In this document: positions 2,802 to 59,176 of the stretch, one piece after another
Position numbering within the stretch: position 1 is the stretch's first letter
Layout: each line of letters starts with the position of its first letter
From: an uncultured Curtobacterium sp.
GTDB lineage: Bacteria; Actinomycetota; Actinomycetes; Actinomycetales; Microbacteriaceae
DNA: 64,000 nt
Reading direction: 5' to 3'
Assembly: GCA_913778205.1 (NCBI GenBank)
Contig: CAJYUW010000044.1
Coordinates: forward strand, 1-64,000
Position numbers and translations under genes: made by a program
The notes under the pieces: generated by a model
The model's input: the letters and a program-made list of their open reading frames with translations, nothing else
Database searches by the model: none
Told to the model about the DNA's origin: nothing

Positions 2802-3368
2802 ATGGCCACCGACTGGATCGCACTGCAGGCACTCGCAGCCGCCGAGTTCGGCCGCCGCGTCGAGGCCGTCACCGACTGGGACGCGCCGACGCCGGATTCG
2901 GAGTGGACCACGCGCGACCTCGTGACCCACGTGGTGGACGAGCAGCGGTGGATCCCGCTGCTGCTCACCGGCCAGGCGTACGACCAGGCCGAGGCCGACC
3001 TCGAGCCGATCGGCGACGACCTCGCCGCCGCGTGGACCGAGCACGCGACCCGGGCGACGGCAGCGTGGCGCGACGTCCCCGCCGACGTCTCCGTCCACCT
3101 CAGCACCGACGTCGTGCCGGCGCACGAGTACCTCGCCGAGCAGACCAGCGACATCACCATCCACACCTGGGACCTCGCACGTGCGACCGGCACGGACGAA
3201 TCGCTCCCCGACGAGCTCGTCGAGGCCGTCTGGCACCGGTTCGAGCCGAAGATCGAAGACCTCGCCGCCACCGGCCTGTACGCCCCGCCGGTCGACGTCC
3301 CCGACGACGCTCCCCTGCAGGTCCGTCTCCTCGCGGTCACAGGCCGCGATGCCAGGGTGGACGCATGA
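2802..3368 (+). CDS. TIGR03086-type DinB-like protein
   Basis: A 188-residue member of the actinobacterial TIGR03086/TIGR03083 group, related to mycothiol-dependent maleylpyruvate isomerase and DinB four-helix bundles. It shows the DLVTHVVDEQRW segment, whose His is one expected metal ligand, and the conserved ITIHTWDLARATG segment with a second His. Members are presumed metal-dependent enzymes that may use mycothiol, but substrates are mostly unknown. The ATG at 2802 has GGAG upstream. Its stop overlaps the start of the next aldo/keto reductase, so the two are almost certainly one translationally coupled operon. Confidence 0.82.
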   Translation: MATDWIALQALAAAEFGRRVEAVTDWDAPTPDSEWTTRDLVTHVVDEQRWIPLLLTGQAYDQAEADLEPIGDDLAAAWTEHATRATAAWRDVPADVSVHLSTDVVPAHEYLAEQTSDITIHTWDLARATGTDESLPDELVEAVWHRFEPKIEDLAATGLYAPPVDVPDDAPLQVRLLAVTGRDARVDA

Positions 3369-4354
3369 CCACCGCCACCACACGACTCGGCAGCACCGGC
3401 CTCGAGATCAGCAGCGTCATCCTCGGGATGATGTCCTACGGCGACCCGTCGAAGGGCTCCCACGAGTGGAGCGTCGGCATCGACGACGCCCGCCCGTTCG
3501 TGCGCCGTGCGTTCGAGGCCGGCATCACGACGTTCGACACGGCGAACGTGTACTCCGACGGCAGCAGCGAGGAGATCACCGGACAGCTCCTCAAGGAGCT
3601 CGCCCCGCGCGAGGACGTCCAGGTCTTCACCAAGGTCTTCAACCGCATGCGCCCGGGCCGCAACGGCGCCGGACTCTCCCGTGCTGCGATCATGCACGAG
3701 ATCGACGCCTCCCTGACCCGGCTCGGCACCGACTACGTCGACCTCTACCAGATCCACCGCTTCGACCCGCACACGCCGGTCGAGGAGACTATGGAGGCAC
3801 TGCACGACGTCGTCAAGGCGGGCAAGGCGCGGTACATCGGCGCGAGCAGCATGTGGGCGTGGCAGTTCGCCGAGATGCAGCACGTCGCCGAGCGGCACGG
3901 CTGGACGCGGTTCGTCGCCATGCAGGACCAGTACAACCTCCTCGAGCGCGAGGAAGAGCGCGAGATGCACCCCTACTGCGCCCACACCGGGGTCGGCGTC
4001 ATCCCGTGGAGTCCCCTCGCCCGCGGACGCCTCACCCGCCCCTGGGACGCGCAGGGTTCCGGGTCCCGTGCGGACACCGACGAGTTCGGCAAGACCCTCT
4101 ACCGCCAAGACGAGGACGCGAACCGCGCGATCGTCGACGCGGTCGCGCAGGTCGCCGACGACCGCGGGGTGCCGATGGCGCAGGTCGCGCTGGCGTGGGC
4201 TGCCGGCAAGTCGGTCGTCAGCGCACCGATCGTCGGCGCGACGAAGGAGCACCACATCGACGACGCGGTCGCCGCATCGTCGCTCGAGCTCACCGCTGAC
4301 GAGGTCGCACGACTCGAGCAGGCGTACACGCCGCGGGAGCCGTCGGGCTTCTGA
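3365..4354 (+). CDS. Aldo/keto reductase
   Basis: A 329-residue aldo/keto reductase starting MTTATTRLGSTGLEIS, with TTFDTANVYSDG (catalytic Asp and Tyr), VFTKVFN (Lys) and YQIHRFD (His). The cofactor segment SAPIVGATKEHHIDDAV lies near the C-terminus. The GWTRFVAMQDQYNLL and GVGVIPWSPLARGRL blocks resemble the AKR group often annotated as L-glyceraldehyde 3-phosphate reductase-like or aryl-alcohol dehydrogenase-like. It overlaps the preceding DinB-like gene by an ATGA junction. A shared role in detoxifying a reactive carbonyl is possible but is only an inference from context. Confidence 0.9.
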   Translation: MTTATTRLGSTGLEISSVILGMMSYGDPSKGSHEWSVGIDDARPFVRRAFEAGITTFDTANVYSDGSSEEITGQLLKELAPREDVQVFTKVFNRMRPGRNGAGLSRAAIMHEIDASLTRLGTDYVDLYQIHRFDPHTPVEETMEALHDVVKAGKARYIGASSMWAWQFAEMQHVAERHGWTRFVAMQDQYNLLEREEEREMHPYCAHTGVGVIPWSPLARGRLTRPWDAQGSGSRADTDEFGKTLYRQDEDANRAIVDAVAQVADDRGVPMAQVALAWAAGKSVVSAPIVGATKEHHIDDAVAASSLELTADEVARLEQAYTPREPSGF

Positions 4355-4358
4355 GGCA

Positions 4359-4500
4359 CCCGCCACGCACCGGGGGTCGGACCGGCAGGCGCGGCGCACG
4401 CCCGCCACGCACCCGGGCCGGACCGGGAGGCGCGGCGCACGCCCGCCACGCACCGGGGCCCGGACCGGGAGGCGCGGCGCACGCCCGCCACGCACTTCCC
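4359..4500. repeat. Tandem repeat, about 42 bp, four copies
   Basis: The block CCCGCCACGCAC recurs at 4359, 4401, 4442 and 4484, separated by GGACCGGGAGGCGCGGCGCACG-like spacer, giving three full units of 41-43 bases and one partial. The first copy begins five bases after the aldo/keto reductase stop codon, and the array fills the gap between the two convergent genes. It contains half-sites of the GGGAGGC palindrome family. Confidence 0.85.
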
Positions 4501-13772: not shown

Positions 13773-13872
13773 CCCGGCATCGTGCCGCCGCCGGGCGAAC
13801 CCACGGTGACGCGCCGGTGAACGACCGTCGGCGGCGGCGCGCCCCGAGCGCCAGCGCCGCCACCCCCGGACC

Positions 13873-13923
13873 GTCAGTGCGCCGCCGTCGTCCCGACGGT
13901 CAGTGCGCCGCCGTCGTCCCGAC
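13873..13923. repeat. Tandem 26-bp duplication across a stop codon
   Basis: GTCAGTGCGCCGCCGTCGTC followed by CCGACG occurs at 13873-13898 and again, with only the last base changed, from 13899 to 13923. The second copy contains the stop codon and last codons of the DUF3054 gene, so its 3-prime end is exactly duplicated downstream. Confidence 0.9.
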
Positions 13924-14313
13924 CGAGCGTCGCTGCCGCCGGGCGACGAGCGGACCCGCGACGAGACGCCACCCCAGCAGGAAGACCGCGAGGACGATGG
14001 TCGCGACGATGACGAACGACACCGGCAGCGGGTTCCCGTCCACGACGCCCTGCCCGGTCTCGACACGGATCGCCATCCCGATGAACACCGTCAGGACCCA
14101 CACGACGACCCCGGTCGGCCAGAGGCGGAGCGGCCGGCCCCACGCACCGCTCGACACGTAGCCGATCGCCCAGCCGGCGAGGAACGGGTACGCGGTGGTC
14201 CAGAGTCCGAGCGGGGAGAACGCCTCGGCGTGGGAGGACCGTCCGATCGCGGCGAACGCGACGATGAGGACGATGTCGACGACGGCTGCGAGCCAGCCCC
14301 AGGTGCGAGTCAC
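13900..14313 (-). CDS. DUF3054 family membrane protein
   Basis: A 137-residue membrane protein with four predicted helices: WGWLAAVVDIVLIVAFAAIG, a segment around TTAYPFLAGWAIGYV, PTGVVVWVLTVFIGMAI and SFVIVATIVLAVFLLGW. The conserved DUF3054 signature is present as AAIGRSSHAE after the first helix, with RVETGQG later. Function is unknown. Families of this kind are widespread in actinobacteria and haloarchaea. The C-terminal coding sequence with stop codon is duplicated just downstream. Confidence 0.85.
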   Translation of the reverse strand: MTRTWGWLAAVVDIVLIVAFAAIGRSSHAEAFSPLGLWTTAYPFLAGWAIGYVSSGAWGRPLRLWPTGVVVWVLTVFIGMAIRVETGQGVVDGNPLPVSFVIVATIVLAVFLLGWRLVAGPLVARRQRRSVGTTAAH

Positions 14314-39818: not shown

Positions 39819-39898
39819 GCGGGAGTGGTGGAATTGGTAGACACGCAGGATTTAGGTTCCTGTGCCCCGGCGTGAGGGTTCGAGTCCCTCCTTCCGCA
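39819..39898 (+). tRNA. tRNA-Leu (TAG anticodon)
   Basis: The acceptor GCGGGAG pairs with CTTCCGC, with A as discriminator base. The anticodon stem CAGGA/TCCTG carries loop TTTAGGT with anticodon TAG. The variable arm TGCCCCGGCGTG is long, as expected for a class II Leu tRNA, and the T-arm GGTTCGAGTCC is canonical. CCA is not encoded and must be added enzymatically. Confidence 0.95.
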
Positions 39899-39966
39899 CG
39901 ACAGACGGCACTCCGCACGACGGACGGGCCCTGCGCAGCATGGCCGGCACTCCGCACGACGGACGG
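39893..39966. repeat. Reiterated 3-prime end of tRNA-Leu
   Basis: TCCGCACGACAGACGG, which includes the last six bases of the tRNA, is followed by two near-identical copies at 39912-39927 and 39951-39966 (one base differs). This resembles the 3-prime-end reiterations seen at protein genes in this window. No integrase or attachment partner is nearby. Confidence 0.8.
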
Positions 39967-40092
39967 TTCTCCGCAGGATCCGCGCGATGTCCGGGAACTC
40001 ATACGGACGGCGGATGGGCAGGACACCCCGGGGCGGTACCCTCGACCCAGCGGGGACCTCCTCGTGTCCACGCCCGCCCGACCGGAAGAACC

Positions 40093-44903: not shown

Positions 44904-45224
44904 GCGTCCAGGGTACGACGCGCACGGCCGGGTGGCGACGGCCGGGAGGCGCGGTGCGGGCCCGCCACGGGCCTCCCGGCCAGCGAGGTGGCGACGATCG
45001 GGAGGCGCGGTACCGGCCCGCCACGGGCCTCCCGGATGCTCCGGTGGCGGCGATGCGCCGGCGGCGACACGACGGTCGGTCAGAGGGACGGATCGGACGG
45101 CCGGATGGCCGCGCCCCGCCGGACGGTGCAACGACGACGGTGGGTGACGAGCCGCTCGGCGCGGCACACGGCTGCGACGCGCGCCGCTCCGCGGACCGTA
45201 CGCCGTCGAGGCGCGCGGACGCGG
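44904..45224. repeat. Intergenic GGGAGGC palindrome pair
   Basis: A 321-base region without a gene. Two successive units, about 44935-44988 and 44990-45046, each read GG-GACG-CGGGAGGCGCGGT, a short spacer, then CCCGCCACGGGCCTCCCGG, forming tandem hairpins. Beyond 45050 I see only GC-rich sequence with a CGACGACGGTGGGTGACGAG patch and nothing gene-like. Confidence 0.7.
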
Positions 45225-46796
45225 TCAGTTGCGCTGCGCTGCAGCGAGGAGGTCCGGACCCCGTCGGTCGAACGCACGCCCGCCGACCACGACACCCGCG
45301 ACCAGGACGACCACGCCGACCACGGCACCGACGACCAGCGTCGCGGTCGCCCACGGCTCCGCGCCGTCGCGGAACGCCAGCACGGCGAGCCACACGGCCG
45401 GCACCGAGCAGAGCACGGTCCCGAGCACCATCACCGACTGCGCGACCGTCGCCGTGACGCCCGCGGCCTGCGGCTGCTGGAAGGGGTGGTCGCCGGGACG
45501 CACCGTCGGGTACGGCAGCAGCACCGAGACGACGCTCGACAGCCCGAGTCCGGACAGCAGCGCCGATGCGCCGATGCCGATCAGCACCGGGAACGCGGTC
45601 CAGTCGCCGAAGAGCCGCGCGGAGACCGCGGCCCCGGCGACGAGGAGGGGCACCCCGACGACGAGGAGCGGCACGACCCGGCCGAGCCGGTCGCTCCACC
45701 CCGGAGCCCCCGACGCGACGTGCAGCCACACGGCGGTGTTGTCGTAGGAGACGTCGTTGTGCGGCAGGAAGCCGGCGATGAGGGCCATCAGCGGCAGGGG
45801 CACGAGCGCCGTCCAGTGCCACGGGACCCCGGCGACCCCGAGCGGGACCACGACGATCGGCACGAAGACGAGCACGAGGTAGGACGTCCGGTAGCGGGGG
45901 TCGCGACCCCAGTACGTCAGCGCCCGCGCGGCGACGGCAGCGACGGGCGCGGAACCGAGGCGGTCGAACCAGCCGAGGCCGCGGTACCGACGACTGCGCC
46001 GCCGAGGCTCGGCGGTCTCCAGCGCGTGCCCGACCTGCGCCCACCAGGCCCAGCCGAGGAGGGCGACCGTGACCAGTGCCACCAGGAGCTGGAGCACACC
46101 GGTGCCGACGTCACCGACCGCGACGTCCGCCGGGACGGCCCAGGCGGCACCCCACGGCGTCCACCCGGCGATGCCCGCGACGCGCTGCGTCTCGGCTCCC
46201 GCCGGGTCGATCCAGCCGCTGCCCAGCAGGAGCGAGACGGTGGGGACGGCGAGGGCGACGATCACGAGCGCGACGAGCCAGCCGGCGTCACGCGTCCGGT
46301 GCTGCCCGATCAGGCGCGAGCCCGCCGTGCCCGCGACGCGGACGAGCAGTGCGCACGTCGCGATGGCGAGCAGTCCGCCGACCACGCCGAGGACGGCCGT
46401 CCCACCGCCGCGCATCCACGTGACGGACTGCCCGACGGCGACGATCGCGACCGCGACCACGGGCACGCCCACCAGCCCGGCGACGAGGAGCCCGACCGCG
46501 AGGTCCTTCCGGCCGATCCCGAACACGGTGAACCGCCGCGGGTCGAACTGGTCCGCGTGCCCCGCGACGAGCGGGACGACGGTGAAGCCGAACGTGACGA
46601 GGGTGCCGACCGGGACGATGATCGCGCGTGCCGATCCGGCGTCGACCGTGCGGAGGCCCGCGGCGACGACGGCGATCGCCACCGCGGCGACGAGTCCGAC
46701 GAGGCTGGCGAGGACGACCAGGACGGAGCGACGGGCACTCCCCCGGACCGCGCCCGCGAGCACGTCGACCCTCAGCCGGAGAAGCTGTGCAACCAT
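45225..46796 (-). CDS. ABC transporter membrane protein
   Basis: A 523-residue polytopic protein with roughly 12 hydrophobic segments, consistent with a fused or large ABC-2-like permease. Hydrophobic stretches include SVLVVLASLVGLVAAVAIAV and YLVLVFVPIVVVPLGVAGV; a loop reads FLPHNDVSYDNTAVWLHVAS. Its start lies 25 bases inside the 3-prime end of the ATPase gene, so it is co-translated with it. The substrate cannot be read from sequence. Confidence 0.85.
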   Translation of the reverse strand: MVAQLLRLRVDVLAGAVRGSARRSVLVVLASLVGLVAAVAIAVVAAGLRTVDAGSARAIIVPVGTLVTFGFTVVPLVAGHADQFDPRRFTVFGIGRKDLAVGLLVAGLVGVPVVAVAIVAVGQSVTWMRGGGTAVLGVVGGLLAIATCALLVRVAGTAGSRLIGQHRTRDAGWLVALVIVALAVPTVSLLLGSGWIDPAGAETQRVAGIAGWTPWGAAWAVPADVAVGDVGTGVLQLLVALVTVALLGWAWWAQVGHALETAEPRRRSRRYRGLGWFDRLGSAPVAAVAARALTYWGRDPRYRTSYLVLVFVPIVVVPLGVAGVPWHWTALVPLPLMALIAGFLPHNDVSYDNTAVWLHVASGAPGWSDRLGRVVPLLVVGVPLLVAGAAVSARLFGDWTAFPVLIGIGASALLSGLGLSSVVSVLLPYPTVRPGDHPFQQPQAAGVTATVAQSVMVLGTVLCSVPAVWLAVLAFRDGAEPWATATLVVGAVVGVVVLVAGVVVGGRAFDRRGPDLLAAAQRN

Positions 46797-49132: not shown

Positions 49133-49957
49133 GTGACCACAGCGAGTGCGCCGACCGTGCCCGCGGCTGCTGCCCAGACGGCCAGCCGCAGTGCCGGTCG
49201 GCGCTATCGTCATGCGCTCTGGCTGCTGACGGTCCGCGACCTCCGGGTCCGCTACTCCACCTCGGCGCTCGGCTACCTCTGGTCCATCCTCGACCCCCTG
49301 GTGATGTCGGCCATCTACTGGTTCGTGTTCACGCAGGTGTTCCACCGCGGCAAGGTGGGCGAGGAGCCGTACATCGTCTTCCTCCTGTCCGCGCTCCTGC
49401 CGTGGATGTGGTTCACGGGAGCGGTCTCGGACTCGACCCGTGCCTTCACGAGCGAGGCGAAGCTCATCCGGTCGACGACCATCCCGCGCAGCATCTGGGT
49501 CGCCCGGATCGACGCGTCCAAGGGCATCGAGTTCGTCCTGAGCCTGCCCGTGCTCGCGATCTTCGTGCTCGCGACCGGTGCGCACCTGCACTGGGAGATC
49601 CTGCTCTACCCGATCGCGATCGTGCTGCAGTGCGCGCTGATCTACGGCCTCGGACTCATCGTCGCGCCGCTCGTGGTCTTCTTCCGCGACCTCGAGCGCG
49701 CCGTGAAGCTGGTCCTGCGCTTCCTGTTCTACGCATCGCCGATCATCTACGGCACCTCCGCGCTTCCGGAGCGCTTCCGCGACCTCATGGCGCTGAACCC
49801 GCTCTCCGGGATCATCGGCATCTACCGCTCGGCCTTCTTCCCGAGCCAACTGCAGTGGCACGAGGTGATCGGTTCGACGGTCGTGACGATCATCGTCGTC
49901 GTCGTCGGCACGCTGGTCTTCAAGCGGAGCGAGCACCGGGTCCTGAAGGAGTTGTGA
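49133..49957 (+). CDS. Wall polymer ABC exporter permease (TagG/Wzm-like)
   Basis: A 274-residue ABC-2 permease with six helices. LLTVRDLRVRYSTSALGYLW near the N-terminus is the hallmark amphipathic region of polysaccharide/teichoic acid exporters (TagG, Wzm, RfbA). FFRDLERAVKLVLRFLFYAS and LNPLSGIIGIYRSAFF are further typical blocks. It would flip a lipid-linked polymer to the outer face. The GTG start follows GGAGGG, and the stop overlaps the ATPase start (TGATG). Confidence 0.93.
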   Translation: MTTASAPTVPAAAAQTASRSAGRRYRHALWLLTVRDLRVRYSTSALGYLWSILDPLVMSAIYWFVFTQVFHRGKVGEEPYIVFLLSALLPWMWFTGAVSDSTRAFTSEAKLIRSTTIPRSIWVARIDASKGIEFVLSLPVLAIFVLATGAHLHWEILLYPIAIVLQCALIYGLGLIVAPLVVFFRDLERAVKLVLRFLFYASPIIYGTSALPERFRDLMALNPLSGIIGIYRSAFFPSQLQWHEVIGSTVVTIIVVVVGTLVFKRSEHRVLKEL

Positions 49958-50727
49958 TGACGACCACCGACGCGTCCCGACGCAGCACGACCACGACGCC
50001 GGTCATCAGCGTGCGCGGGGCCGGTATCCGGTTCAAGCGGAACCGCCGCGCGAGCCGCAGCTTCAAGGACCTCTTCGCGGGCCGCGACCGCCGGAAGCGC
50101 GGCGACGAGTTCTGGGCGCTCCGCGACGTCTCGTTCGACGTGCAACCCGGCGAGGCGATCGGGGTCGTCGGGCGGAACGGACAGGGGAAGTCCACGCTCC
50201 TCAAGCTCGTCGCCCAGGTGATGCTCCCCGACGAGGGCCAGGTCCGCGTCGGGGCCGGGGTCGCTCCCCTGATCGAGATCACCGGCGGGTTCGTCGGGGA
50301 CCTCACCGTGCGGGACAACGTCTACCTCACCGCAGGCCTGCACGGGATGTCGCGCGCGGAGATCCGGGACGCCTTCGACGAGATCATCGAGTTCGCCGAG
50401 ATCGGTGACTTCGTGGACACCCCCTACAAGCACCTGTCGAGCGGCATGAAGGTCCGCATCGCGTTCTCGGTGATCTCCCGCCTCGACGAGCCGGTGCTGC
50501 TCGTCGACGAAGTCCTCGCGGTGGGCGACAAGGGGTTCCGGGAGAAGTGCTACAAGCGCATCGACGAGCTGCTCGCCGGTGGGCGCACGCTGTTCTTCGT
50601 GTCCCACAGCGATAAGGACCTGCGACGGTTCTGCGACCGTGGGCTCTACCTCGACAAGGGGAACCTGCAGTTCGACGGCCCGATCGACGAGGCGCTCGCG
50701 CGCTACAGCGCCGACTACACGTCCTGA
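49957..50727 (+). CDS. Wall polymer ABC exporter ATPase (TagH/Wzt-like)
   Basis: A 256-residue ATPase. Walker A is GRNGQGKSTLLK, the signature is HLSSGMKVRIAFS, and Walker B is PVLLVDEVLAVGD, all in the forms found in teichoic acid and O-antigen exporters. The RASRSFKDLFAGRDRRK insert before the core is typical. There is no C-terminal carbohydrate-binding domain as in long Wzt proteins, so it probably does not recognise a modified chain end. The coding sequence of its last seven codons is reiterated downstream. Confidence 0.93.
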   Translation: MTTTDASRRSTTTTPVISVRGAGIRFKRNRRASRSFKDLFAGRDRRKRGDEFWALRDVSFDVQPGEAIGVVGRNGQGKSTLLKLVAQVMLPDEGQVRVGAGVAPLIEITGGFVGDLTVRDNVYLTAGLHGMSRAEIRDAFDEIIEFAEIGDFVDTPYKHLSSGMKVRIAFSVISRLDEPVLLVDEVLAVGDKGFREKCYKRIDELLAGGRTLFFVSHSDKDLRRFCDRGLYLDKGNLQFDGPIDEALARYSADYTS

Positions 50728-50870
50728 GCGGGATCGGCAGCGCCGACCCCGCGTCCTGACCGGGGCGGGCAGCGCCGACCCCGCGTCCTGACCGGGACCG
50801 GCAGCGCCGTCCCTCCGCCCCGACACGGCCGGTCGGCAGCGCCGACCGCGGGTCCCGATCGGGACTTCGA
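50706..50870. repeat. 32-bp tandem repeats including the gene's stop
   Basis: Three consecutive 32-base units start at 50706, 50738 and 50770, each beginning CAGCGCCGAC and containing CGTCCTGA. The first unit is the real end of the TagH-like gene (codons Ser-Ala-Asp-Tyr-Thr-Ser-stop); the next two read Ser-Ala-Asp-Pro-Ala-Ser-stop in shifted frames. Degenerate copies follow at 50802 and 50837. The remaining bases up to 50972 carry no gene. Confidence 0.9.
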
Positions 50871-50972: not shown

Positions 50973-51275
50973 ATGCACCCCAGCGCCACCGCCTACCGCG
51001 TCCCGTTCCACCTCGACCGCAGCGCAGCCCCGCGTCGGTACACGCTCGTCAACACCGGCCATGAGCCGGTGGACGGCCTCACCCTCACCCACCTCGGGAC
51101 GGGGTACGCGCCTCCTCTGGCGGTCCGTCGGCTCGAGCCCGGCCGCGGCCTGACGATCGCCGTGTTCGGTGCCCCGGCGGAGGAGACCGGCGTGGTCGTC
51201 CTCCGCTGGCGCCGCCCGGACCGCAGCGAGTACCTCTGGCACGTGCCGCTGGCGGCCGACGCCCCGTGCCGCTGA
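50973..51275 (+). CDS. Small uncharacterised protein
   Basis: A 100-residue protein beginning MHPSATAYRVPFHLDRSAAP. The pattern of alternating hydrophobic residues in RRYTLVNTGHEPVDGLTLTH and LTIAVFGAPAEETGVVVLRW suggests a small all-beta fold, such as an Ig-like or beta-sandwich domain. There is no signal peptide. I do not recognise the family. It sits at the junction of convergent wall-polymer genes, and its 3-prime end is reiterated. Base composition and codon pattern look like a true gene. Confidence 0.6.
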   Translation: MHPSATAYRVPFHLDRSAAPRRYTLVNTGHEPVDGLTLTHLGTGYAPPLAVRRLEPGRGLTIAVFGAPAEETGVVVLRWRRPDRSEYLWHVPLAADAPCR

Positions 51276-51310
51276 CGGCCGGAACCACGTGCCGCTGACG
51301 ACCGACGCAC
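51238..51310. repeat. 23-24 bp repeats across a stop codon
   Basis: CGTGCCGCTGGCGGCCGACG, then CGTGCCGCTGACGGCCGGAA, then CGTGCCGCTGACGACCGACG follow at 23-24 base intervals. The middle copy contains the stop of the small beta protein; the third lies beyond it. Confidence 0.8.
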
Positions 51311-51382
51311 CGGCTGTCGACCCGGCCAGCAACCGTCGCCTCCCGGCCCGGCCCCGGCAGCAGTCGCCGCCGGGACGGCCGG

Positions 51383-55559: not shown

Positions 55560-57641
<2,082 letters not shown>

Positions 57642-57823
57642 GCTGGACGTGCTCCTTTCAAGCTCGTGCAGTCTGTCGCACACACCTGAGCGCCGGTCCT
57701 GGCCCGGCTGCACGCGACCTATGGCGATCTTATGCGTGCGCTGAAGAACGGTCCTCGGCAGCCCTGCAGCGCCCCGCTAGGTTGGTGTCGACCGGCACGA
57801 CGACCGACGGCGGAGGGACCACC

Positions 57824-59026
57824 ATGCGACTCGAGGGCCCCTGGCTGCGCGCGGCGGAGGGAGCGATGCTCCTCGGTCCGGACGGTGTCCCCGCCCCCAC
57901 GGTGTTCGCGGAGATGAGTGCGCTGGCCGCCGCGACGGGAGCGATCAACCTCGGGCAGGGCTTCCCCGACGAGGACGGCCCGCAGGAGGTCCTCGACGCC
58001 GCCGTGCAGGCCGTCCGGGACGGCGCGAACCAGTACCCGCCCGGTCGGGGCACCGCGGACCTGCGCGCCGCGATCGCCGAGCACCAGGCGCGCTGGTACG
58101 GCCTCGAGGTCGACCCCGACCGCGAGGTCCTCGTCACCGCAGGGGCGACGGAAGCCCTCGCCGCGACACTCCTCGCCCTCGTCGAGCCCGGCGACGAGGT
58201 GGTCACGTTCGAGCCGTTCTACGACGCCTACGGAGCCCTGATCCGGCTCGCCGGCGGCACGCACGTCACCGTCCCGCTCACCGCGCCGGACTTCCTGCCG
58301 GACGAGACGACGCTCCGCGCAGCGTTCTCGGACCGCACCCGGGTCGTCCTCGTGAACACGCCGCACAACCCGACCGGTCGCGTCCTCCCGGTCGAGGTCC
58401 TGCGGACGATCGTCGAGCTCGCCGAACGCCACGACGCGGTGATCCTCACCGACGAGGTGTACGAGCACCTGACGTTCGCGATCCCGCACGTCCCGATCGC
58501 GACGCTGCCGGGCGCCCGCGACCGCACCGTGACGGTGTCGAGCGCCGGGAAGACCTTCAGCACCACCGGCTGGAAGATCGGTTGGCTCACCGCCCCCCCG
58601 GCGCTGGTCGACGCGATCACGACCGTCAAGCAGTTCCTGACGTACGTGAACGGCGCGCCGTTCCAGCCCGCGGTGGCGGCTGGACTCCGTCTGCCGGCCG
58701 AGGTCTTCACGGGCATCGCGTCCACCCTGGCCGCGAAGCACGAGCTCCTCGCCGAGGGACTCCGGACGGCCGGCTTCGACGTCCTGCACCCCGACGGCGG
58801 GTACTTCGTGATCGCGGACGCCGCGCCGCTCGGCTTCGACGACGCCCGTGCGCTCTGCCTGGCGTTGCCCGAGCGCGCCGGGGTCGTCGGAGTCCCGGTG
58901 TCGGCCTTCGTCCGCCCCGAGCACGCCGGCGGGTACCGGTCGCTCGTCCGGTTCGCGTTCTGCAAGCGCCGGTCTGTGCTCGACGAAGCCGTGTCCCGCC
59001 TCTCGACGCTCGTGCCGAGCGTCTGA
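57824..59026 (+). CDS. PLP-dependent class I/II aminotransferase
   Basis: A 400-residue aminotransferase of the fold type I group related to methionine or kynurenine aminotransferases (YbdL-like). It has INLGQGFPDEDGPQEVLDA, VLVTAGATEALAATLLAL, LVNTPHNPTGRVL, ILTDEVYEHLTF and the PLP-lysine region VSSAGKTFSTTGWKIGW, with the final Arg region YRSLVRFAFCK. It probably transfers the amino group of an aromatic or sulfur amino acid to a keto acid. The ATG follows GGAGGG. A TAGGTT -10-like box at 57778 is plausible. Confidence 0.92.
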   Translation: MRLEGPWLRAAEGAMLLGPDGVPAPTVFAEMSALAAATGAINLGQGFPDEDGPQEVLDAAVQAVRDGANQYPPGRGTADLRAAIAEHQARWYGLEVDPDREVLVTAGATEALAATLLALVEPGDEVVTFEPFYDAYGALIRLAGGTHVTVPLTAPDFLPDETTLRAAFSDRTRVVLVNTPHNPTGRVLPVEVLRTIVELAERHDAVILTDEVYEHLTFAIPHVPIATLPGARDRTVTVSSAGKTFSTTGWKIGWLTAPPALVDAITTVKQFLTYVNGAPFQPAVAAGLRLPAEVFTGIASTLAAKHELLAEGLRTAGFDVLHPDGGYFVIADAAPLGFDDARALCLALPERAGVVGVPVSAFVRPEHAGGYRSLVRFAFCKRRSVLDEAVSRLSTLVPSV

Positions 59027-59130
59027 CCGCCCGCGCCGACCACTCGCGCCCGATCTGGCCGTCCGGCTGACGGTCCGCGCACGCCATGGCCGTCCGGCTG
59101 ACGGCCCGCGCCCGCTCTGACCGTCCGCGC
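59010..59130. repeat. Tandem repeats across the aminotransferase stop
   Basis: GAGCGTCTGACCGCCCGCGC contains the gene's stop. It is followed by GTCCGGCTGACGGTCCGCGC, GTCCGGCTGACGGCCCGCGC and a shorter CGCTCTGACCGTCCGCGC copy. The copies are spaced 20-40 bases apart and all retain CTGAC. Confidence 0.7.
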
Positions 59131-59176
59131 ACGGATTGGGCGATGCGCCTTCGTGGGGGATGCTGCCGGATCGCCC

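Follow-up and report, generated by a model that had tools for sequence, protein, structure and literature searches.

Bacterial minisatellites, or VNTR loci, are formed by slippage and consist of imperfect units repeated head to tail, mostly in intergenic DNA. More specialised repeat systems have also been described. Tandem repeats of the archaeal Borgs are reported to be fast evolving and independently born, with units whose length is a multiple of three within ORFs but not in the DNA between ORFs (PMC9879509). In Mycobacterium, MIRUs are described as apparently mobile repeat units that occur at 41 scattered places (PMC2734929, PMC12548453), and the MIRU-VNTR (ETR-F) region upstream of Mtb-fpg1 is reported to begin 40 bases past the rnc stop codon (PMC2734929). 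In Beggiatoaceae, TAACTGA direct repeats are stated to overlap the stop codon of the upstream gene in 13 ORFs (PMC4679880). Among surveys, one reports a weak enrichment of short tandem repeats upstream and downstream of genes in bacteria and archaea (PMC12699852), and an older one describes longer-unit tandem repeats as normally represented in most prokaryotes (PMC4060949). A literature search naming Curtobacterium returned nothing on intergenic arrays, a statement about that search and not a wider claim of absence from print.

In this study, we analysed tandem arrays at gene ends in a 64,000-nucleotide stretch of DNA (the window) from an uncultured Curtobacterium sp. and in its source genome and relatives. 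The sequence-only reading of the window had held that gene ends reiterated with their stop codon match no described system, which is too strong for the pattern, given minisatellites, the Beggiatoaceae TAACTGA repeats, MIRU-VNTR and the repeat surveys. The Curtobacterium arrays resemble minisatellites in having head-to-tail imperfect units, in being mostly intergenic and rarely common to relatives, and in their edge microhomology; unlike these, they are dense in the genus, and a subset spans the stop codon with the last codons of the gene as the first copy. Like the Borg repeats as reported, they evolve fast, are independently born and follow the same unit-length rule in ORFs, whereas the Borg repeats are described as perfect, A-rich and extrachromosomal and those of Curtobacterium are GC-rich, often degenerate and apparently chromosomal. 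With MIRUs and MIRU-VNTR, as described in those reports, they share intergenic tandem units near gene ends in an actinobacterium; unlike MIRUs, each stop locus here has its own separate unit taken from the local gene end. No single family dispersed through the genome was found, and only the unit at an aldo/keto reductase gene resembles dispersed sequence. Like the TAACTGA repeats, some of the arrays are short tandem repeats containing stop codons, but the TAACTGA repeats are described as one heptamer family lying mainly just upstream of starts, on the opposite side of genes.

One stop-spanning array lies at the end of a gene for a TagH-like ABC transporter ATPase (49957-50727, forward strand; codon-usage gene call; Pfam ABC_tran PF00005, E 2.9e-19). 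The proposal that 32-base units repeat the end of this gene together with its stop codon was borne out, and the array is longer than had been noted: a repeat search and TRF gave five tandem copies at 50702-50863 on the forward strand. The repeat search placed the copies at 50702-50732, 50734-50764, 50766-50796, 50798-50828 and 50833-50863, with spacings of 32, 32, 32 and 35 bases, and TRF reported 50706-50865 with scores of 167 (period 32) and 185 (period 64). The copies are degenerate; the remaining four match the reference copy at 74-94% identity. Identity between copies 2 and 3 is 94%, and degeneration has gone further in copies 4 and 5. The first copy is coding, comprising the last 22-26 bases of the CDS with the real stop at 50725-50727, and TGA is retained in copies 1-3 (50757-50759 in copy 2, 50789-50791 in copy 3).

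The TagH-like protein is 95% identical to two C. luteum records and at most 90% identical to the other loci among the best 80 of 227, and the 32-base array was not seen in any of the 43 relatives compared at this locus. Two relatives carry unrelated repeats at the stop of the same gene, namely a 16-base TGA-bearing array (G019) and a weak 18-base duplication (L025). Folding of the array was not clearly better than that of shuffled sequence (z -1.54; 14 of 200 shuffles equal it), and no inverted repeat of at least 10 bases was found in it; shorter ones are readable, for example in copy 5. An Rfam search returned no family at this or the other arrays, and a structured RNA was ruled out on that result together with the weak folding z. 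A dispersed mobile repeat was likewise ruled out for the TagH array, its units being locus-specific.

The array was probably produced by replication slippage between short matches, and was likely tolerated since the first copy keeps its own stop. As we picture it, slippage seeded by microhomology would copy a gene end head to tail, and the duplication would be tolerated, since termination would still occur at the gene's original stop in the first copy. Duplications may arise at a broadly similar rate everywhere; selection would then remove most of those inside genes and around starts, and duplications would survive in the 3-prime flank, where overlap with the stop codon would be the natural edge of a permissive zone. 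More generally, stop-spanning arrays are probably a tolerated accident rather than the product of a new process at transcript ends.

The sequence-only reading had listed five further loci at which a gene end is reiterated. Taken over all six, three arrays carry the stop codon and one carries an RNA 3-prime end, but two lie just downstream of the gene; the units of the six loci differ, in agreement with the view that the sequences are independent. A 26-base array of 2.2 copies (13869-13925, reverse strand; TRF, period 26) crosses the stop of a DUF3054 gene (13900-14313, reverse strand; Pfam) as had been proposed. In a species-level comparison, TGA-bearing copies at this stop occur in the source genome, G010 and G004 with differing units and numbers; those in G004 and G010 are related in sequence and have units of about 22 bases. 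Likewise, about three copies of a 23-base unit (51242-51312, forward strand; TRF, period 23) do span the stop of a gene for a 100-residue protein (50973-51275, forward strand), and L045 has a different, 20-base stop-crossing duplication at the stop of this gene. At the tRNA-Leu gene (39819-39899), a degenerate array called by TRF (39893-39975, forward strand) takes in the last bases of the tRNA, also as claimed.

The two remaining loci fit the proposal in part. At the aminotransferase gene (57785-59026, forward strand), units bearing CTGAC, which resembles the stop context, are indeed present downstream, but the called 31-base array (59056-59127, forward strand; TRF) begins 29 bases after the stop, in the convergent spacer, and leaves the stop outside. 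In this spacer (59027-59176), different arrays or sequence were seen in L012, L014, L028, L031, L033 and L047, among many relatives. At the aldo/keto reductase gene (3365-4354, forward strand), a 42-base array (4359-4495, forward strand; TRF) begins just past the stop in a convergent spacer, as described, but does not carry the stop. Its unit resembles a dispersed terminator-like sequence, and similar sequence was matched at many places in the genus. Another TRF array, of about two copies of a 56-base unit with the inverted repeat CGGGAGGC / GCCTCCCG, lies at 44927-45054 (unstranded) in the spacer downstream of gene 45225-46763 (reverse strand). Units of the arrays at 4359-4495 and 44927-45054 share the CGGGAGGC arm, with similar sequence at many places across the genus. 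Separately, the gene at 55560-57641 (reverse strand) contains a long internal repeat (56994-57363) with periods of 9 and 42 bases among others.

For the wider comparison, the source genome, a 56-contig draft, was sampled as 66 stretches (1.26 Mb), and the single-contig genomes G010 and G019 were also sampled. The best 80 of 227 related loci comprise 41 Curtobacterium loci, which represent one homologous region and therefore give counts that are not independent, and 39 other loci, mostly from other Microbacteriaceae but including two named Curtobacterium (L051, L058). Gene starts and stops were taken from our own codon-usage caller rather than published annotation, and missed genes and small RNAs are possible. 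A TRF score cut-off of 50 was used for array densities, stop and start crossing, and unit lengths, and one of 60 for spacer-class counts, birth densities and the hairpin comparison.

Arrays are abundant in this genus. Concatenated intergenic DNA of the source genome holds 1.16 arrays per kb (score at least 50), as compared with 0.03-0.06 in three order-3 Markov simulations; since simulated intergenic DNA gives about 30-fold fewer, the arrays are more than compositional noise. Noncoding DNA carries 1.21 arrays per kb in the source genome, 1.23 in the 41 Curtobacterium loci and 0.63 in the 39 other loci, with 0.84 and 0.51 in the samples of G019 and G010. Thus, intergenic arrays are common in Curtobacterium and not special to the source genome. 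Nor is the window clearly unusual within its genome: a 20-mer spanning the stop is repeated in 3 of its 51 genes versus 30 of 1363 elsewhere (binomial P 0.10). A separate family of tandem units in the source genome, of about 73 bases (163 bases in L116) and related to the palindrome GTCGTACGAC, lies mostly in convergent spacers (L004 12152-12401, L140 7940-8169, L115 16337-16556, L088 9212-9380, L095 10395-10577 and L116 3938-4297); in the source-genome sample, the palindrome was counted 25 times in noncoding DNA and 3 times in coding DNA, whereas the noncoding DNA of the 41 Curtobacterium loci has none.

An enrichment of repeats at stop codons over random placement had been suggested as a check, and no excess was seen in the source genome: with each array placed at random in noncoding space, 26 stop-crossing arrays were observed in the source genome against 29.5 expected. 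The corresponding values were 10 against 5.4 in G019, 4 against 3.0 in G010, 15 against 19.3 in the 41 Curtobacterium loci and 9 against 5.5 in the 39 other loci. The surplus in G019 fell from z 2.1 at score 50 to 0.7 at score 80, and that in the 39 other loci from 1.6 to 1.1. Start-crossing arrays numbered 4 against 32.6 expected in the source genome, 1 against 5.8 in G019, 0 against 3.4 in G010, 2 against 27.0 in the 41 Curtobacterium loci and 1 against 8.6 in the 39 other loci. Over the five sets, then, arrays are strongly depleted at starts and near random expectation at stops.

The same was seen with a TRF-free test, which asks whether the 20-mer spanning a site (stops, starts or pseudo-sites) recurs downstream. 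In the source genome, the stop-spanning 20-mer is repeated in 33 of 1414 genes (2.3%) and the start-spanning one in 3 of 1441, and the figure at a site 90 bases inside the gene is 1.06%. At pseudo-sites 15, 30 and 45 bases past the stop it reaches 5.9%, 8.2% and 7.4%, which is 2.5-3.5 times more than at the stop itself; in the other four sets these pseudo-sites exceed the stop 1.1-2.7 times, G010 having 2.0% at the stop and 2.3-2.8% beyond it. The stop is the shoulder of a plateau, not a peak. The claim that the repeats hold a common position relative to the gene therefore stands in so far as arrays favour 3-prime flanks, especially convergent ones, but they have no peak at stops or terminators.

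What does change at the stop is the rule on unit length. Units divisible by three make up 872 of the 948 arrays inside CDSs but only 25 of the 82 stop-crossing arrays that reach at least 0.7 unit past the stop (Fisher P 7e-37), the latter being no different from one third. Wholly intergenic arrays lie above one third (181 of 435, 42%), perhaps from missed genes. Among exact duplications in the source-genome sample, lengths are multiples of three in 61 of 63 coding and 32 of 94 noncoding cases, and the stop-crossing arrays of the window have units of 32, 26 and 23 bases. A duplication across the stop, of any length, does not alter the protein, which is terminated within the first copy, and the freedom of stop-crossing units from the multiple-of-three rule is as expected if the stop of the first copy lifts the frame constraint. 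This shows that the frame filter ends at the stop; passage across it is a matter of geometry, which the counts of survivors follow.

Slippage as the source of the copies was addressed with a population of duplications to which the TagH array itself does not belong. In 81 exact two-copy noncoding duplications from the source-genome sample, microhomology had a median of 4 bases and reached at least 5 bases in 49%, versus a median of 1 and 0.9% in a blunt-join simulation on the same genome (451 joins). Medians in the other four sets (12, 5, 35 and 12 duplications) were 6.5, 6, 3 and 3.5 bases. Edge microhomology therefore speaks for slippage or template switching between short matches. As in VNTR loci, the arrays here are head-to-tail copies of a 10-100 base unit, and at the population level they are born at short direct repeats; in both respects the Curtobacterium arrays behave like minisatellites. 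When the orthologous spacer with 60 bases of flank was searched, a similar unit turned up in G010 for 2 of 20 source-genome arrays, one of which is the DUF3054 array. In G019 the count was 0 of 12, and in G004 it was 1 of 6, again the DUF3054 array. Array turnover is thus fast, with units that differ between species.

The distribution of arrays among spacers mostly follows sequence constraint. In the source genome, an array is present in 67 of 188 convergent, 84 of 533 tandem and 17 of 224 divergent spacers. Median spacer identity to G010 is 0.46 for convergent (n=9), 0.63 for tandem (n=36) and 0.80 for divergent spacers (n=18), with relative length differences of 0.40, 0.21 and 0.02, and identity to G019 is 0.40 (n=9), 0.54 (n=24) and 0.65 (n=10), respectively; the shuffled baseline of 0.57 was obtained with pairs of equal length, so that these values cannot strictly be compared with it. 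For G004, with 2 convergent, 6 tandem and 2 divergent spacers, divergent spacers were no more conserved than tandem ones. Within spacers, conservation is lower in the 40 bases following a stop than in the 40 preceding a start, both to G010 (0.69 vs 0.85; 16 spacers) and to G019 (0.57 vs 0.71; 10 spacers). Because divergence follows the same order as array frequency, arrays coincide with the weakest constraint, which is for the most part that on the 3-prime flank.

The principal alternative is that the tandem duplications are made by a mutational process at transcript ends, with slippage or template switching at sites of RNA polymerase termination or collision. We regard this as unlikely, although part of the evidence speaks for it. 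Array births in the source genome amount to 3.15 per kb in convergent spacers, 2.48 in tandem 3-prime flanks and 0.52 in divergent spacers, and local repeats have a broad maximum 40-50 bases past the stop. The convergent-to-divergent difference favours such a process, but the similarity of convergent and tandem 3-prime flanks means that collision of RNA polymerases is not needed. In tandem spacers of the source genome, G019 and G010, after exclusion of DNA closer than 100 bases to the next start, 54 births fall within 100 bases of the stop (24.3 kb) and 14 deeper (13.6 kb), an approximately twofold excess. The two zones do not differ clearly in conservation, their identities being 0.55 near the stop vs 0.51 deeper to G010 and 0.47 vs 0.57 to G019, and a transcript-end process could still explain the excess. 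Avoidance of starts was considered as the whole explanation and found incomplete, because convergent spacers are dense in arrays and divergent interiors nearly empty (2 arrays in 9.2 kb) far from starts; conservation of divergent interiors could be checked in only 2 spacers per relative, and divergent bases 50-99 from the start have an identity to G019 of 0.55, little above the convergent 0.47.

One recurrent stop also favours a transcript-end process. Gene 45225-46763 (reverse strand; gene call) has no Pfam family and encodes a protein with a hydrophobic N-terminal stretch that ends in AAAQRN. Its stop lies inside arrays in 6 of 40 relatives (L013, L018, L025, L037, L045 and L162). The 19 further gene ends in the comparison together gave 10 of 739 cases, and of all 20 ends that of gene 45225-46763 showed the strongest recurrence; the source genome itself has no array at this stop. 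The units are 17, 30, 34, 35 and other lengths, and L045, L037 and L025 carry about three to five identical or nearly identical repeats of the last codons with TGA. Pre-existing 6-base repeats in the coding end, for which this gene ranked third of 20, were weakly supported as the cause. This stop is the best place to seek a local mutational cause.

Several results weigh against the transcript-end process. There is no peak on stops, ordinary sequence divergence mostly matches the array map, and coding duplications exist but are filtered by frame. Strong hairpins (stem of at least 8) are not enriched in arrayed 3-prime flanks, being present in 19% of 140 such flanks and 26% of 537 without arrays; terminator-driven slippage was ruled out since they are rarer in the arrayed flanks. 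The process put forward in the sequence-only reading is thus unneeded for most of the signal, which lacks a stop peak, has fewer hairpins and follows constraint, but it could still explain the twofold residue and the one hot stop. In its fuller form, Curtobacterium transcript ends would be duplication hot zones in which template switching is triggered by termination or release of RNA polymerase, at up to about 100 bases from the stop, some stops being hit again across species; we give this only a small chance. If it were true, gene ends and stops would be repeatedly copied, and the 3-prime flank would be a nursery of new repeats.

Selection of the copies for reinforcing terminators, stabilising mRNA or providing spare stop codons seems very unlikely. 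Some units do have terminator-like inverted repeats, as at 44927-45054, and in several relatives the position of the aldo/keto reductase array, downstream of the gene, is occupied by a single terminator-like hairpin. However, few arrays are common to sister species, the folding of the TagH array is not clearly above shuffled sequence, arrayed flanks are not enriched in strong hairpins, and units not divisible by three put the later stops out of frame. An assembly artefact or compositional chance is less probable still: at least three of the listed arrays start at or near contig ends of the draft genome, but the single-contig genomes also carry arrays, including stop-crossing ones, and the shortfall in simulated sequence argues against chance. 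Least probable of all is a MIRU-like mobile repeat that inserts at stop codons: the units carry stops and sit between genes, but no common unit exists among the stop loci, the TagH region has only two weak partial matches in the rest of its genome, the TagH array, unlike a MIRU with its inner ORF coupled to the start of the following gene, stops 107 bases short of the next called start and has a unit not divisible by three, and nothing need have been inserted because the first copy is the gene's own end.

In summary, tolerated slippage gives a simple rule for a striking pattern: the first stop switches off the frame filter, and the 3-prime end of a gene is the coding place where duplications of any length pass. 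Curtobacterium stands out for intergenic minisatellites that are dense, turn over quickly and might serve as strain markers, and the small but measurable residue near stops offers a handle for the study of transcription-linked duplication.
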